Shown here piece by piece: positions 1,739 to 4,905 of a DNA stretch of 64,000 bases (positions are counted from its first letter, which is position 1; each line of letters begins with the position of its first letter). A program made the position numbers and the translations under genes. The notes beneath the pieces are model-generated. The model had not been told where the DNA came from, did not search any database, and worked only from the letters and a program-made list of their open reading frames with translations. Source of the DNA: Leptolyngbya subtilissima AS-A7 (GTDB lineage Bacteria; Cyanobacteriota; Cyanobacteriia; Phormidesmidales; Phormidesmidaceae); NCBI RefSeq assembly GCF_039962255.1, contig NZ_JAMPKY010000014.1, positions 1 to 64,000 of the forward strand, read 5' to 3'.

Positions 1739-1767
1739 TTGACATTTTTTAGATAATTGAGTTAGAG
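1739..1767 (+). promoter_or_regulatory. Possible sigma-70 type promoter of the thrS leader
   Basis: TTGACA at 1739-1744 is a perfect -35 hexamer. With a 17-base spacer the -10 would be TTAGAG (1762-1767), which is weak; GATAAT at 1752-1757 is a better hexamer but too close. The position, 31 bases before the first leader peptide, suits transcription of the attenuator that follows. Confidence 0.35.
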
Positions 1768-1797
1768 AACATATATCAAAACAGAACTTCTCCCGCC

Positions 1798-1860
1798 ATG
1801 AGAGTAGCGATCGCCCTTACTACCACTACCACCCCAACTATCCATCTAGGAGGGTCGTAA
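1798..1860 (+). CDS. Thr-rich leader peptide 1 of the thrS attenuator
   Basis: A 20-codon reading frame (ATG to TAA) with five consecutive threonine codons (ACT ACC ACT ACC ACC, 1819-1833) and a sixth shortly after, then Pro-Thr-Ile-His-Leu-Gly-Gly-Ser-stop. The two Gly codons form GGAGGG at 1849-1854, exactly complementary to CCCTCC (1898-1903) in the following terminator. A ribosome stalled on the Thr run would leave GGAGGG free; one finishing at the stop would cover it. It lies upstream of a threonyl-tRNA synthetase gene. No strong ribosome binding site is visible, so translation is inferred from design and from repetition in leader 2. Confidence 0.7.
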   Translation: MRVAIALTTTTTPTIHLGGS

Positions 1861-1894
1861 GGCGCTGCACACAAATACAGTCTTACTACTTTAG

Positions 1895-1930
1895 TTGCCC
1901 TCCAGACAGAATCTGGGGGGCAATGTTTTT
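1895..1930 (+). terminator. Attenuator terminator 1 of the thrS leader
   Basis: A 12-base-pair stem with one T-G pair, TTGCCCTCCAGA (1895-1906) against TCTGGGGGGCAA (1912-1923), with a 5-base loop, followed by TG and five Ts. This is a textbook intrinsic terminator inside a leader rather than after a gene. Its 5' arm can instead pair with GGAGGG in leader peptide 1. Confidence 0.8.
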
Positions 1931-1948
1931 GAATGGAAAGGAATGCTC

Positions 1949-2017
1949 ATGTTACTGATGATGCTGCTTGCAATAAATACTAATACCACCACTACCATCA
2001 CGCCAGGAGGGACGTGA
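1949..2017 (+). CDS. Thr-rich leader peptide 2 of the thrS attenuator
   Basis: A 22-codon frame (ATG to TGA) with seven Thr codons, four of them consecutive (ACC ACC ACT ACC, 1985-1996). It ends Ile-Thr-Pro-Gly-Gly-Thr-stop. A plausible ribosome binding site, AAAGGA, lies six bases upstream of the ATG; an in-frame ATG at 1943 is less well spaced. As in leader 1, the Gly-Gly codons spell GGAGGG (2006-2011), complementary to CCCTCC (2049-2054) of the next terminator, and the stop codon sits just after it. The repeated architecture with different surrounding sequence argues for selection on function. Confidence 0.75.
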   Translation: MLLMMLLAINTNTTTTITPGGT

Positions 2018-2045
2018 CGATTAGATTGCATATGCAATTTTTTCT

Positions 2046-2077
2046 AAACCCTCCGAGCCAAGATTGGAGGGTTTTTT
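2046..2077 (+). terminator. Attenuator terminator 2 of the thrS leader
   Basis: Stem AAACCCTCC (2046-2054) with GGAGGGTTT and a run of six Ts (2072-2077), only 36 bases before the thrS start codon. Just upstream, ATTGCATATGCAAT (2025-2038) followed by Ts is a short palindrome that could act as an RNA polymerase pause hairpin. The 5' arm CCCTCC is complementary to GGAGGG in leader peptide 2, giving an antiterminator alternative. Confidence 0.8.
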
Positions 2078-2112
2078 GTTGCCAAATTACTTTTACATCA
2101 GGAGAAACTAAA

Positions 2113-3354
2113 ATGGCGGATCACCGTGAACTTGCAAGAGATATGGACTTGTTTCATTTTGAGGAGCATAGTCCGGGAATGGTGTTTTGGCACTCCCAAG
2201 GGTTTCAGCTTTTTCGCAGCATTGAAAACTTGATGCGACAAGTTTATCAAGCCTATAACTTTGAAGAAGTGCGATCGCCCATTGCGCTGAGCCGATCACT
2301 CTGGGAACGTTCAGGGCATTGGGAAAAATTTCGCAAGGGGATGTTTGTGGTGGGCAGTGGAGAGCCAGAGGCAGACAATGACTCAGCTCAATCCATCCTC
2401 AACCCTGACTATGCGCTCAAGCCCATGTCTTGCCCTGCCCACATCGCCATTTATCAGTCCCACAAGCGCAGCTATCGAGAGCATCCCATGCGATTGATGG
2501 AGTTTGGCATGTGTCATCGCAATGAACTCTCTGGAACCTTGTCGGGCTGTATGCGACTACGACAGTTTGTTCAGGATGATGCTCATATCTTCTGCCGAGA
2601 ATCTGATGTGCAGCATGAAATCGGCAATTTCCTCAAAATGGTGCAGCAGGTCTACGCTGCCTTTGGCTATGACCACTTTTCCTTGCAAATTTCTCTGAGA
2701 CCTGAGCAACGGCTTGGCTCTGATGACCTCTGGGATCGCGCTGAGTCGTTGTTAATCGAAGCCGTTCAATCACTAGGGCACAGCTACCAATTAGCTCCAA
2801 AGGAAGGAGCATTCTACGGGCCAAAACTCGAAATTAGTTTGCAAGATCAGTTGGGGCGATCGTGGCAGTGTGGCACGTTTCAAGTTGATTTTAACCTTCC
2901 TCAGGTGTTTGAGTTAGCGTTTGTGAATGAACAGGGAGAACTGGAACGACCTGTCATGCTGCATCAGGCAATTTTAGGGTCGCTAGAGCGGTGGATCGGC
3001 ATTTTGTTAGAACACCATCGCGGTGTCCTCCCCGTTTGGGCCGCCCCGACACAGATTGCGATCGCCTCTATTTCTAACAAGGCATCTGTCTGGGCAGAAA
3101 CGATTTTCTCTCGGCTCAAGCAACTGGGGATTAGAGTAGAACTTCACAATCAAGATCGAACAATTAGCAAGAAAATTCGGGACCTCTCCAAACGCAGGGT
3201 TCCGTTGATTGCGATTGTGGGTGAGCAGGAAGCTAAGAGCCAAACGTTGAACCTTCGACGTTTGGGTGCTGTCGAACAACAAGAAATCAGCCTTGCTCAA
3301 CTTGAGCTTATGTTGGCAGATCTTGCCATGCCGAGCGTACGTTTGTCATCCTGA
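2113..3354 (+). CDS. thrS: Threonyl-tRNA synthetase lacking the editing domains
   Basis: A 413-residue class II synthetase that charges tRNA-Thr with threonine. The catalytic core and the C-terminal anticodon-binding domain are present. The zinc ligands of threonyl-tRNA synthetases are recognisable as the Cys of MSCPAH, the His of DDAHIFC and the His of MLHQAILGS, and motif 3 is GSLERWIGILLEH. Usual enzymes have about 600-640 residues; here the N-terminal TGS and SAD editing domains are absent, so mischarged Ser-tRNA-Thr would not be cleared in cis. The start at 2113 follows AGGAGA with good spacing; the in-frame extension back to 2014 runs through the terminator hairpin and is rejected. An editing-impaired second enzyme induced by zinc stress is known in Anabaena (T2). 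Here the leader suggests control by tRNA charging. Confidence 0.93.
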   Translation: MADHRELARDMDLFHFEEHSPGMVFWHSQGFQLFRSIENLMRQVYQAYNFEEVRSPIALSRSLWERSGHWEKFRKGMFVVGSGEPEADNDSAQSILNPDYALKPMSCPAHIAIYQSHKRSYREHPMRLMEFGMCHRNELSGTLSGCMRLRQFVQDDAHIFCRESDVQHEIGNFLKMVQQVYAAFGYDHFSLQISLRPEQRLGSDDLWDRAESLLIEAVQSLGHSYQLAPKEGAFYGPKLEISLQDQLGRSWQCGTFQVDFNLPQVFELAFVNEQGELERPVMLHQAILGSLERWIGILLEHHRGVLPVWAAPTQIAIASISNKASVWAETIFSRLKQLGIRVELHNQDRTISKKIRDLSKRRVPLIAIVGEQEAKSQTLNLRRLGAVEQQEISLAQLELMLADLAMPSVRLSS

Positions 3355-3438: not shown

Positions 3439-4176
3439 ATGAACACAGCGAAAGATCACTATGATCAGCAGATTGCCTCTGTTTATAGTTGGATGACGGG
3501 TGCTCCAGAAACAGCACTTAAACGCAATCATGACCTTTTCCGTCAGCTTGGGCTTGATTCAACACCACGGGGATTAGCCATCGATTTAGGAGCAGGATCG
3601 GGATTTCAATCCATTCCATTAGCAGAGTTGGGATTCCCAGTCGTTGCTGTGGATTTTTGTGCAGCGTTATTGTCAGAATTGAGTGCTCGTGCCAAGTATC
3701 TTCCTGTCCGCACGGTTCACGACGACATTCTTAACTTCTCCAAGCATGTCAAAGAGCAAGCGAAGGTCATTGTTTGCATGGGCGACACGCTGACACATTT
3801 GGAGTCATTGAGTTCAGTCCAGTCTTTACTCTTGAACATAAAATGTGCATTGGTTAAAGATGGTAAACTGATTTTGACTTTCCGTGACTACGCTTCTGCA
3901 GAGCCTGACAGAACACAGCGTTTTATCCCTGTCCAAAGTGATGAGTCTACAATTCTCACCTGTTTTCTTGAGTATCATGAAGACTTTGTGGAAGTCTACG
4001 ACCTACTTTATCGAAAGATTGGAGAACAATGGATATTGAATGTTAGTTCTTATCCGAAGTTACGCATCAATAAAAACTGGATTTTTGATCAGCTACAAAA
4101 AGAAGGATTTCAAGTGGTTCGGAATGAAACAATCAATGGAATGATATGTATTGCTGCCAATGCACTGGAACTTTGA
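3439..4176 (+). CDS. Class I SAM-dependent methyltransferase
   Basis: A 245-residue protein with the SAM-binding motif I as IDLGAGSGFQSIPLA near residues 48-62, followed by the acidic strand end VVAVDF and the VIVCMGDTLTHL segment typical of small-molecule methyltransferases. It probably methylates a small molecule in the cytoplasm; the substrate is unknown. It follows thrS by 84 bases on the same strand and precedes a P-loop kinase, so the three may be co-transcribed. The local sequence is poorer in HIP1 octamers than the genes further right, which fits a transferred segment. Confidence 0.82.
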   Translation: MNTAKDHYDQQIASVYSWMTGAPETALKRNHDLFRQLGLDSTPRGLAIDLGAGSGFQSIPLAELGFPVVAVDFCAALLSELSARAKYLPVRTVHDDILNFSKHVKEQAKVIVCMGDTLTHLESLSSVQSLLLNIKCALVKDGKLILTFRDYASAEPDRTQRFIPVQSDESTILTCFLEYHEDFVEVYDLLYRKIGEQWILNVSSYPKLRINKNWIFDQLQKEGFQVVRNETINGMICIAANALEL

Positions 4177-4275
4177 AGTACACTGGGTTCTAGCAAAAAC
4201 TATTTGCGTCCGGTGATTGCGCACGTTAGGTTGCCAAATTGCAAGAGTATGACAGAGTTACTGAGATGCAAGAGT

Positions 4276-4905
4276 ATGGCAGGAACAGTTAACAAACGAT
4301 CATCAAGTTTTGTAGTTGCTATCAGTGGGCCCTCTGGAGCAGGAAAAACTTCTCTGGTGCAGAAAGTGACCTGCTTGTTAGAGGACGCTGTATCTTTCTA
4401 TTTCGATGACTATGTCTGTGTATCAAAGTATCCTTCAGACTTCTCTCAGTGGATTAGAGAAGGGGCTGATCTTAATCAGTGGGAAACTCTACAGCTCCTC
4501 GAAGACTTACAAGCATTACGGCATGGAAAGGCCATTTCTTTGCCCGAGAATCAAGAAATAATTCAATCAGCCAGCTTCATTGTGATCGAAGAGCCGTTTG
4601 GTAGAGAACGCGCCAAGATGAGCGAACTAATTGATTTTGTAGCATATATCAACCTTCCGCTAGAAGTTGCCTTGGCACGTCGATTGCTGCGAGACATTGA
4701 ACAGTGTGTCACTGAAAGAAAGCAAGATATCCTAGCAGCCTATCTCAAAGAATATCTGACAGAATATCTCAATGGTGGCACTCGAGAACTGTATTTTGAA
4801 GTAAGTACAAGAGTTTTGCAGAATTGTGATTTGATTCTAAATGGGGTCAACTCTTTGGATGAGTTAGCGAATGAAATAGTGACTGCGATCAAAACAAGGG
4901 TGTAG
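4276..4905 (+). CDS. P-loop kinase of the uridine kinase/AAA type
   Basis: About 209 residues with a Walker A motif GPSGAGKTS close to the N terminus, the segment YFDDYV resembling the substrate loop of uridine kinase-like enzymes, a Walker B-like FIVIEEPFG and an arginine-rich lid-like region ARRLLRDIEQ. It most likely phosphorylates a small molecule or nucleoside; the substrate is unknown. The start is uncertain: a TTG at 4204 and ATGs at 4249 and 4276 are in frame, and 4276 places the P-loop where family members have it. The duplicated GCAAGAGTATG around both ATGs is notable. It is on the same strand as the methyltransferase upstream. Confidence 0.75.
   Translation: MAGTVNKRSSSFVVAISGPSGAGKTSLVQKVTCLLEDAVSFYFDDYVCVSKYPSDFSQWIREGADLNQWETLQLLEDLQALRHGKAISLPENQEIIQSASFIVIEEPFGRERAKMSELIDFVAYINLPLEVALARRLLRDIEQCVTERKQDILAAYLKEYLTEYLNGGTRELYFEVSTRVLQNCDLILNGVNSLDELANEIVTAIKTRV

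Follow-up and report, generated by a model that had tools for sequence, protein, structure and literature searches.

Upstream of a short gene for threonyl-tRNA synthetase (thrS; the enzyme is called ThrRS below), the cyanobacterium Leptolyngbya subtilissima AS-A7 carries two similar leader units in series. We analyzed a stretch of 64,000 nucleotides of contig NZ_JAMPKY010000014.1, called the window in the following, and the region in question spans positions 1739-2115. A cyanobacterial origin agrees with the presence in this genome of reaction-centre genes of family PF00124, for which Synechococcus elongatus was the only match in 14 control genomes, and with the fact that Acaryochloris holds the nearest named relative of the thrS region. 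Comparative analysis makes it very probable that this region is a double ribosome-mediated attenuator which ties the expression of an auxiliary, horizontally moving ThrRS to the charging of tRNA-Thr. In the searches made, the arrangement stands in front of short thrS genes only.

In each unit a Thr-rich leader reading frame carries the hexamer GGAGGG close to its stop codon. The spacer that follows is able to form a small hairpin, and behind it stands an intrinsic terminator whose 5′ arm contains CCCTCC (Table 1). Leader 1 has 6 Thr among 20 residues and leader 2 has 7 among 24, and in both units the Thr runs consist mostly of ACC and ACT codons. For leader 2 an alternative in-frame ATG lies at position 1949 and is preceded by an AAGGA stretch. 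A preliminary description, made from the sequence alone, had listed two Thr-codon leaders, GGAGGG before each stop and two CCCTCC terminators, and these are exactly what is read directly from the DNA. The pattern GGAGGGNNNTRAN{20,45}CCCTCC (GGAGGG, stop, 20-45 nucleotides, CCCTCC) has two matches in the 64 kb, which are units 1 and 2; in 100 shuffles the mean was 0.01 and none had two. A terminator scan reported three sites, both terminators and one weak site on the minus strand (mean in shuffles 0.2). Terminator 1 has 13 pairs and terminator 2 has 11; both are strong, and the fold z-scores are -2.40 for unit 1 and -3.10 for unit 2. Thus a Thr-rich upstream open reading frame, a terminator between leader and gene and, according to the folds, a mutually exclusive antiterminator are all present, and the region would be expected to control thrS.

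Conservation of the two units

Orthologous short thrS genes were found at 17 loci in six cyanobacterial families, and the counts given here refer to these loci. The 17 orthologs are related and the sequence counts are therefore not counts of independent events. Unit 1, comprising leader, GGAGGG and terminator, is present at 17 of 17 loci and unit 2 at 16 of 17, the Thr-rich character of the leader being kept in each case. At one locus (G033) terminator 1 was missed by the script pattern, read by eye and then aligned. The preliminary description had held that a lack of conservation of the Thr codons or of GGAGGG in relatives would speak against an attenuator, and the opposite was found. The Thr runs persist, the hexamer is identical in all 17 copies of unit 1 and in 14 of the 16 loci which keep unit 2, and the two others have AGAGGG (G190) and GGAGAG (G571). 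The CCCTCC sequence, shared by terminator and antiterminator, is identical in 17/17 copies of unit 1 and 16/16 copies of unit 2. Two further copies of the gene, on the plasmids pREC1 and pREC2 of Acaryochloris marina MBIC10699, both keep the two units, with an identical GGAGGG in unit 1.

The placement of the Thr codons is informative as well. If a ribosome covers 12 nucleotides from its A site, the codon 12 nucleotides 5′ of GGAGGG is the last one at which a stalled ribosome leaves the hexamer free. This codon specifies Thr in all 17 unit-1 leaders (13 ACT, 4 ACC) and in 12 of 16 unit-2 leaders. Within the Thr runs the third codon position is the most variable on average, not at every codon; for unit 1 the mean entropies at codon positions 1, 2 and 3 are 0.66, 0.75 and 1.04, and for unit 2 they are 0.43, 0.55 and 0.97. 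ACC and ACT make up 182 of the 197 leader Thr codons; in 35 long frames from the window the proportion is 608 of 916, and the p-value of this comparison is only nominal because the leaders come from 17 related genomes.

The leaders could instead stall the ribosome by arrest on the nascent peptide, for instance in response to an antibiotic, so that a lack of Thr-tRNA would play no part. The residues before the stop codon are indeed conserved, being mostly GGS, GGL or GGT. The two Gly residues, however, are dictated by GGAGGG, and outside the Thr run the peptide varies much more, so that we regard peptide arrest as the least probable of the alternatives discussed here.

Covariation is seen in the outer pairs of terminator 1, where 15 cells of the alignment are changed on both sides versus 4.4 in shuffles; none of 500 shuffles reached this number. 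Outer pairs which covary around an invariant CCCTCC are what a doubly used strand predicts. The hairpin within the unit 1 antiterminator (positions 1857-1886) is paired in 84.7% of cells and the unit 2 hairpin (2024-2039) in 69.1% (16 sequences), both with covariation not above shuffles. In unit 1 the GUAAGG sequence has an alternative partner, CCUUAC of the leader, and this pairing would hide GGAGGG. This alternative is paired in 72.3% of cells, a value reached by 11 of 500 shuffles, and is only modestly supported. By pair counts, neither the leader hairpin of unit 2 nor the antiterminator of either unit covaries more than the shuffles do.

Two genomes in which parts of the arrangement have decayed serve as natural controls, and they speak in favour of an attenuator. 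At the locus which lacks an intact unit 2 (G109), this unit is degraded as a whole, at leader end, GGAGGG and terminator arm, next to an intact unit 1; the remnant is still matched by the covariance model with 57 bits. In a further genome (G225) both units precede a broken thrS remnant which covers about residues 1-56 and 106-131 of the enzyme of genome G597 and has an internal stop. In unit 1 its hexamer has become GGAGAG and in unit 2 GGAGGA, and a shorter complementarity to the terminator arm persists.

Folding and the proposed switch

The preliminary description had proposed to fold the RNA with and without ribosome-occupied segments. We did so by removing the parts covered by the ribosome, which was again taken to extend 12 nucleotides from the A site, and the stalled and the stop states came out as it had proposed. 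With a stall at the last permissive Thr codon and a transcript ending at CCCUCC, the antiterminator has a probability of 0.91-1.00 in all 17 copies of unit 1 and of 0.79-1.00 in all 16 copies of unit 2. Earlier stall sites mostly agree. Once the ribosome has reached the stop codon, pairing of the terminator arm has a probability of 1.00 in 17/17 copies of unit 1 and of 0.83-1.00 in 16/16 copies of unit 2.

We suggest that each unit would operate in the following steps. A ribosome translates the Thr-rich leader behind the RNA polymerase. When Thr-tRNA is scarce, it would stall in the Thr run with its front edge just short of GGAGGG; the free hexamer could then pair with the newly made CCCUCC, the terminator would come too late and transcription would continue. 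When Thr-tRNA is plentiful, the ribosome would reach the stop codon and cover GGAGGG, CCCUCC would pair with its own 3′ arm and transcription would end. GGAGGG resembles a Shine–Dalgarno sequence and may hold the terminating ribosome slightly longer. The two gates stand in series and both have to be passed; as their effects would multiply, expression should be very low at rest and rise steeply upon induction. What we infer from the arrangement is that the leaders are translated, that the choice is kinetic, that the switch responds to Thr charging and that this is why there are two gates. The logic of ribosome-mediated attenuation, already suggested in the preliminary description, thus gains support from the comparison of the loci, with the response to Thr charging being a prediction.

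Alternatively, these might be two ordinary premature terminators at which an RNA-binding protein or a trans-acting RNA determines the read-through, and the Thr codons would then be incidental. Terminators of this strength would work without translation. Such a regulator does not predict that Thr codons, stop position and a spacing of ribosome length are kept in both units and across six families, and the leader region has no Rfam match at the gathering score. We therefore consider this possibility very improbable.

Several observations weigh against a double attenuator or limit how it could work. The two unit-2 hexamers which differ (G190, G571) are changed without compensation in front of an open gene, and the genome G207 keeps both hexamers despite an in-frame TAG in thrS. 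Seven of the 17 unit-1 leaders have Thr at the codon 9 nucleotides, and eight of the 16 unit-2 leaders at the codon 6 nucleotides, before GGAGGG, where a stalled ribosome would cover the hexamer. The covariation of terminator 1 largely separates two related groups, and GGAGGG:CCCUCC is without covariation because the pairing hardly varies. Some early stalls fold poorly, with antiterminator probabilities of 0.11 at -30 (unit 1 of G190) and 0.21 at -36 (unit 1 of G231). With no ribosome on the leader GGAGGG is hidden, that is, the antiterminator probability is at most 0.16, in 10 of 17 copies of unit 1 and only 3 of 16 copies of unit 2; thus the untranslated state is not uniformly off. A strict sigma-70 scan found no promoter site. 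Finally, when the whole terminator is present, the best antiterminator probability for stalls from -30 to -12 stays below 0.5 in 16 of 17 copies of unit 1 and 8 of 16 copies of unit 2. Most units thus favour the terminator at equilibrium, and in these the decision has to fall kinetically, before the RNA polymerase has moved past the interval that separates the arms. In two respects the analysis goes beyond the preliminary description: in most units the switch would have to act during transcription, and the gene it precedes is that of an auxiliary mobile ThrRS.

Specificity of the arrangement

A codon-blind pattern search of 388 genomes sampled from the class matched in eight of them, each time upstream of a short thrS, and the reversed control pattern matched in none. 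All matches are unit-2 copies. Ten genomes of this sample have the gene, of which eight were matched and two (G190 and G109) were missed; elements which resemble unit 1 could therefore occur elsewhere and escape this pattern, a further point against the proposed attenuator. With strict filters a covariance model of unit 2 reported 11 of the 388 genomes, namely the ten with the gene and G225 with its thrS remnant. The same model also matches unit 1 in four of those genomes, in G225 and on both plasmids, which suggests that the two units arose by duplication.

Full-length thrS genes were scanned for leaders as well. Upstream of 127 such genes we found seven Thr-rich short frames on the forward strand versus two in the reverse-strand control, and none of the seven ends with Gly-Gly and one residue. 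The Rfam family Thr_leader (RF00506) scored 20.9 bits in the region (E = 0.13), which is under its gathering score of 55 bits and indicates a resemblance of layout only. The T-box covariance model had no match, neither at the gathering score nor up to E = 5.

A mobile second ThrRS

The product of the window gene is a ThrRS with catalytic core, zinc ligands and anticodon-binding domain all present. It matches TIGR00418 with 445 bits; tRNA-synt_2b and HGTP_anticodon are its only Pfam domains and the alignment to the Escherichia coli enzyme starts at residue 242. The TGS and editing domains of the full-length bacterial type were found neither with Pfam nor in this alignment. Consequently the term "editing-less", used in the preliminary description, is correct. 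The start at position 2113 agrees with that of the annotated plasmid genes of 1224 nucleotides. All three zinc ligands are kept in the short enzymes, and the residue after the zinc ligand His511 is Gln in 17/17 short enzymes versus Arg in 127/127 full-length enzymes. Sixteen of the 17 frames are open to the end. The exception is G207 (L152), where both attenuator units look intact, with its single in-frame TAG at codon 326, which may be a mutation or a sequencing error.

The genome from which the window comes encodes a second, full-length ThrRS (frame of 608 amino acids, 38% identical to the short one). All 17 genomes which carry the short gene have a match of the full-length type as well, except G390, an 83% complete genome. 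The short thrS is thus an auxiliary, mobile ThrRS gene beside a full-length one. Among the 388 genomes sampled from the class it occurs in ten at 74% identity or more; the remaining 29 of the 39 matches are frames of the full-length type with at most 48% identity. Overlapping searches at E = 1e-150 gave six of 63 genomes in the family, four of 36 in family f24 and seven of 291 in the order of G069, which brings the total to the 17 loci. The two Acaryochloris copies on pREC1 and pREC2, which are conjugative plasmids, were found with blastn (82.4% and 81.5% DNA identity). A search of contigs with the ThrRS (background set) returned no ortholog among the 80 loci listed, which included ThrRS of the full-length type with 42-49% identity. 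Apart from the pREC1 and pREC2 copies, the ThrRS found by protein searches of phages and plasmids have identities under 60%. In the plasmid collection 101 records match ThrRS with E values of 1e-60 or lower, eight of them of Klebsiella; some records are chromosome-sized.

In a phylogenetic tree the 17 short enzymes form one clade (100/100) separate from 14 full-length enzymes. Within this clade the host families are intermixed, and several inner forks are weak. No neighbour family is common to more than three of the 17 loci (frames of at least 90 amino acids were considered; some stretches are short). Since promoter, leader and thrS form a conserved block and no neighbour is conserved, the gene seems to travel together with its leader.

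What the second ThrRS may be for

A plausible role for the short enzyme, to which we would give somewhat less than an even chance, is that of an inhibitor-tolerant backup. When a natural inhibitor poisons the housekeeping ThrRS, the attenuators would sense the uncharged tRNA-Thr and turn the tolerant enzyme on; a comparable role has been proposed for the auxiliary TrpRS of Streptomyces coelicolor. Nine of the 17 short enzymes are changed at inhibitor-related sites which are nearly invariant in 127 full-length enzymes: G463S, A460S and L489F occur together in four and G308R in five, and the full-length enzymes have G308 in 127/127, A460 in 127/127 and G463 in 126/127, with position 489 being variable (83 Leu, 42 Met, 2 Val). 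The patchy, mobile and partly plasmid-borne distribution of the gene also fits. With G463S the E. coli ThrRS becomes resistant to obafluorin and borrelidin; the ThrRS ObaO has Ser at this position (PMC11252418). The counterparts of 308 and 489 belong to the borrelidin pocket, and human G387 is listed among the residues which interact with borrelidin (PMC4389257); G387 aligns with G308, a mapping which we made from the numbering of the neighbouring residue 309.

On the other hand, eight of the 17 short enzymes, that of the window included, have neither G308R nor G463S. The substitutions occur in related sequences and may go back to one or few events. L489M gave the E. coli enzyme no obafluorin resistance (PMC11252418).

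Three observations on position 463 may be added. In the short enzymes it is Ser in four and Gly in 13, with the window enzyme among the latter. The sole departure from Gly among the full-length enzymes is an Ala in a Sphingomonas metagenome-assembled genome (L032). The f38 group (genomes G538, G578, G582 and G597; L157-L160) has, together with the G463S enzyme, its own version of both units, in which the spacers differ, the C runs of the terminator arms are longer and the leader starts have diverged.

The main rival to the inhibitor reading is a role in zinc limitation: at low zinc the housekeeping ThrRS would fail, uncharged tRNA-Thr would accumulate and the attenuators would open. Paralogs of ThrRS have been found in Zur regulons (PMC2770081), and the T2 ThrRS of Anabaena is controlled by Zur (PMC4787780). 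Two of the 19 loci at which at least some neighbours were examined lie among COG0523-type zinc genes. On pREC1 the short thrS has cobW, cysS and folE beside it, and in G190 the neighbours are a CobW domain protein, ALAD and GTP cyclohydrolase I. Near the pREC2 copy lie a metal-binding protein and a Fur-family regulator. The short enzymes, however, retain all three zinc ligands, and no such set of genes was seen at the other loci scanned (44 of the 58 nearest neighbours, and three more at G190). We therefore regard a zinc role as unlikely. The attenuator would respond to either cause, as the outcome that it reads is uncharged tRNA.

The segment 4093-7543 of pREC1 (L216), which has cysS divergent to the short thrS and cobW, folE and dacB nearby, is like a zinc-limitation set. 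By eye, no Cys leader of the same kind was seen before this cysS.

Returning to the inhibitor-tolerant backup, we tentatively propose a mobile, self-inducing tolerance cassette, in which promoter, two attenuators and a truncated, inhibitor-tolerant ThrRS would move as a unit from one cyanobacterium to another, at times by conjugative plasmids, and be turned on when the resident ThrRS is poisoned; as a whole this is slightly less probable than a backup role as such. If it were true, natural ThrRS inhibitors would be a recurrent pressure in cyanobacterial habitats. Tandem sensors of charging before thrS would then have evolved twice, as T-boxes in Bacillota and as ribosome-mediated attenuators here.

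Comparison with known systems

The leaders of the thr, his and trp operons and of pheST are ribosome-mediated attenuators of enterobacteria. The thrS leader shares with them a peptide in which the sensed amino acid is abundant, the overlap of antiterminator and terminator and the coupling of transcription and translation. It differs in that two full units stand in series for one amino acid, in a cyanobacterium, and that the antiterminator strand is a minimal one of six nucleotides which is at the same time a Gly-Gly codon pair near the stop. The closest functional parallel is an auxiliary, antibiotic-resistant TrpRS of Streptomyces coelicolor (SCO3334-type), which according to work of Vecchione and Sello from 2010 is said to be under ribosome-mediated transcriptional attenuation. 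There too a second synthetase is reportedly controlled in this way; amino acid and phylum are different, and a single attenuator is reported, as opposed to two units and a truncated enzyme here.

The layout matches that of the tandem T-boxes. In Bacillota thrS and thrZ are preceded by two or three T-boxes in series, and thrS is alone in this among the synthetase genes (PMC12452182, PMC2494555). In both cases serial antitermination units before thrS would sense the charging of tRNA-Thr. T-boxes, however, bind the uncharged tRNA directly, whereas the sensor here would be a translating ribosome, an unrelated device. No T-box was counted in 13 cyanobacterial genomes (PMC2494555). The mgtCBR leader of Salmonella also has two leader reading frames and attenuators, one of them sensing charged tRNA-Pro, but its units read different signals, ATP and proline, and here both would read threonine (PMC3641672). 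Leader-peptide attenuators before synthetase genes have been predicted for cysS in Rhodobacterales (a motif with an upstream open reading frame, PMC8632094) and as histidine leaders for hisS paralogs in bacilli (PMC2965389); these concern other amino acids and phyla, and the accessible text mentions no tandem units.

With regard to the enzyme, ObaO is likewise a second ThrRS and, like four of the 17 short enzymes, has Ser in place of Gly463; it is longer (fragment residues 241-637) and protects the producer of obafluorin, and the window enzyme keeps Gly (PMC11252418). The thrS2 gene of Anabaena is another case of a duplicated ThrRS in a cyanobacterium. Its product T2 is under Zur control and has an editing domain, albeit an impaired one (PMC4787780); the short enzymes have no such domain. 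T2 was not identified among the 14 full-length enzymes of the tree.

A survey of 2016 states that there were no reliable data on an attenuation mechanism in cyanobacteria (PMC4833913). The remark in the preliminary description that no attenuator of this kind was known for a cyanobacterial synthetase gene fits the searchable literature: in the texts within scope, which left most subscription papers outside, we found no cyanobacterial leader-peptide attenuator and no such leader for thrS. The thrS leader would thus be a clear and conserved case of attenuation in cyanobacteria, doubled for a single signal and placed on a mobile second synthetase gene. It raises the questions whether transcription and translation are coupled tightly enough in cyanobacteria for control by the ribosome, why thrS should have two serial gates and whether cyanobacteria meet natural inhibitors of ThrRS.

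Layout and surroundings

The positions of the features are collected in Table 1. The promoter is a candidate and is proposed on account of its conservation: CTTGACA precedes leader 1 at all 17 loci, and the pREC1 and pREC2 copies have CCTGACA at the place of the candidate -35 box.

Table 1. Features of the window from the candidate promoter to the end of thrS
Feature	Position	Strand	Details
Candidate promoter	1739-1767	+	-35 TTGACA 1739-1744, 17-nucleotide spacer, TTAGAG 1762-1767
Putative leader peptide 1, MRVAIALTTTTTPTIHLGGS	1798-1860	+	Thr codons 1819-1833 and 1837-1839; stop 1858-1860
Antiterminator strand of unit 1, GGAGGG	1849-1854	+	Gly-Gly codons, one codon, then stop
Hairpin within unit 1 antiterminator	1857-1886	+	GUAAG 1857-1861 with CUUAC 1882-1886 (folds)
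Intrinsic terminator 1	1894-1930	+	Stem 1894-1924, 13 pairs; CCCTCC 1898-1903 in 5′ arm; T tract to 1930
Putative leader peptide 2, MLMLLMMLLAINTNTTTTITPGGT	1943-2017	+	Stop 2015-2017
Antiterminator strand of unit 2, GGAGGG	2006-2011	+	One codon, then stop
Hairpin between unit 2 GGAGGG and terminator 2	2024-2039	+	GAUUGC with GCAAUU (folds)
Intrinsic terminator 2	2046-2077	+	Stem 2046-2074, 11 pairs; CCCTCC 2049-2054 in 5′ arm; T tract to 2077
thrS ribosome-binding site, AGGAG	2100-2104	+	Sequence reading
thrS, ThrRS of 413 amino acids lacking TGS and editing domains	2113-3354	+	TIGR00418, Pfam; ATG 2113

Downstream of thrS, at 3439-4905, the window encodes a methyltransferase and a small kinase-like protein. 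The best NCBIfam match of the methyltransferase is of the daptide type, well under the cut-off, and this neighbour is common to G017 only. Upstream, a segment of a group II intron (RF02001, 95.5 bits) at 1318-1484 on the minus strand lies shortly before the thrS promoter, and by eye a GTGCG-type 5′ end of the intron lies on this strand near position 1697.

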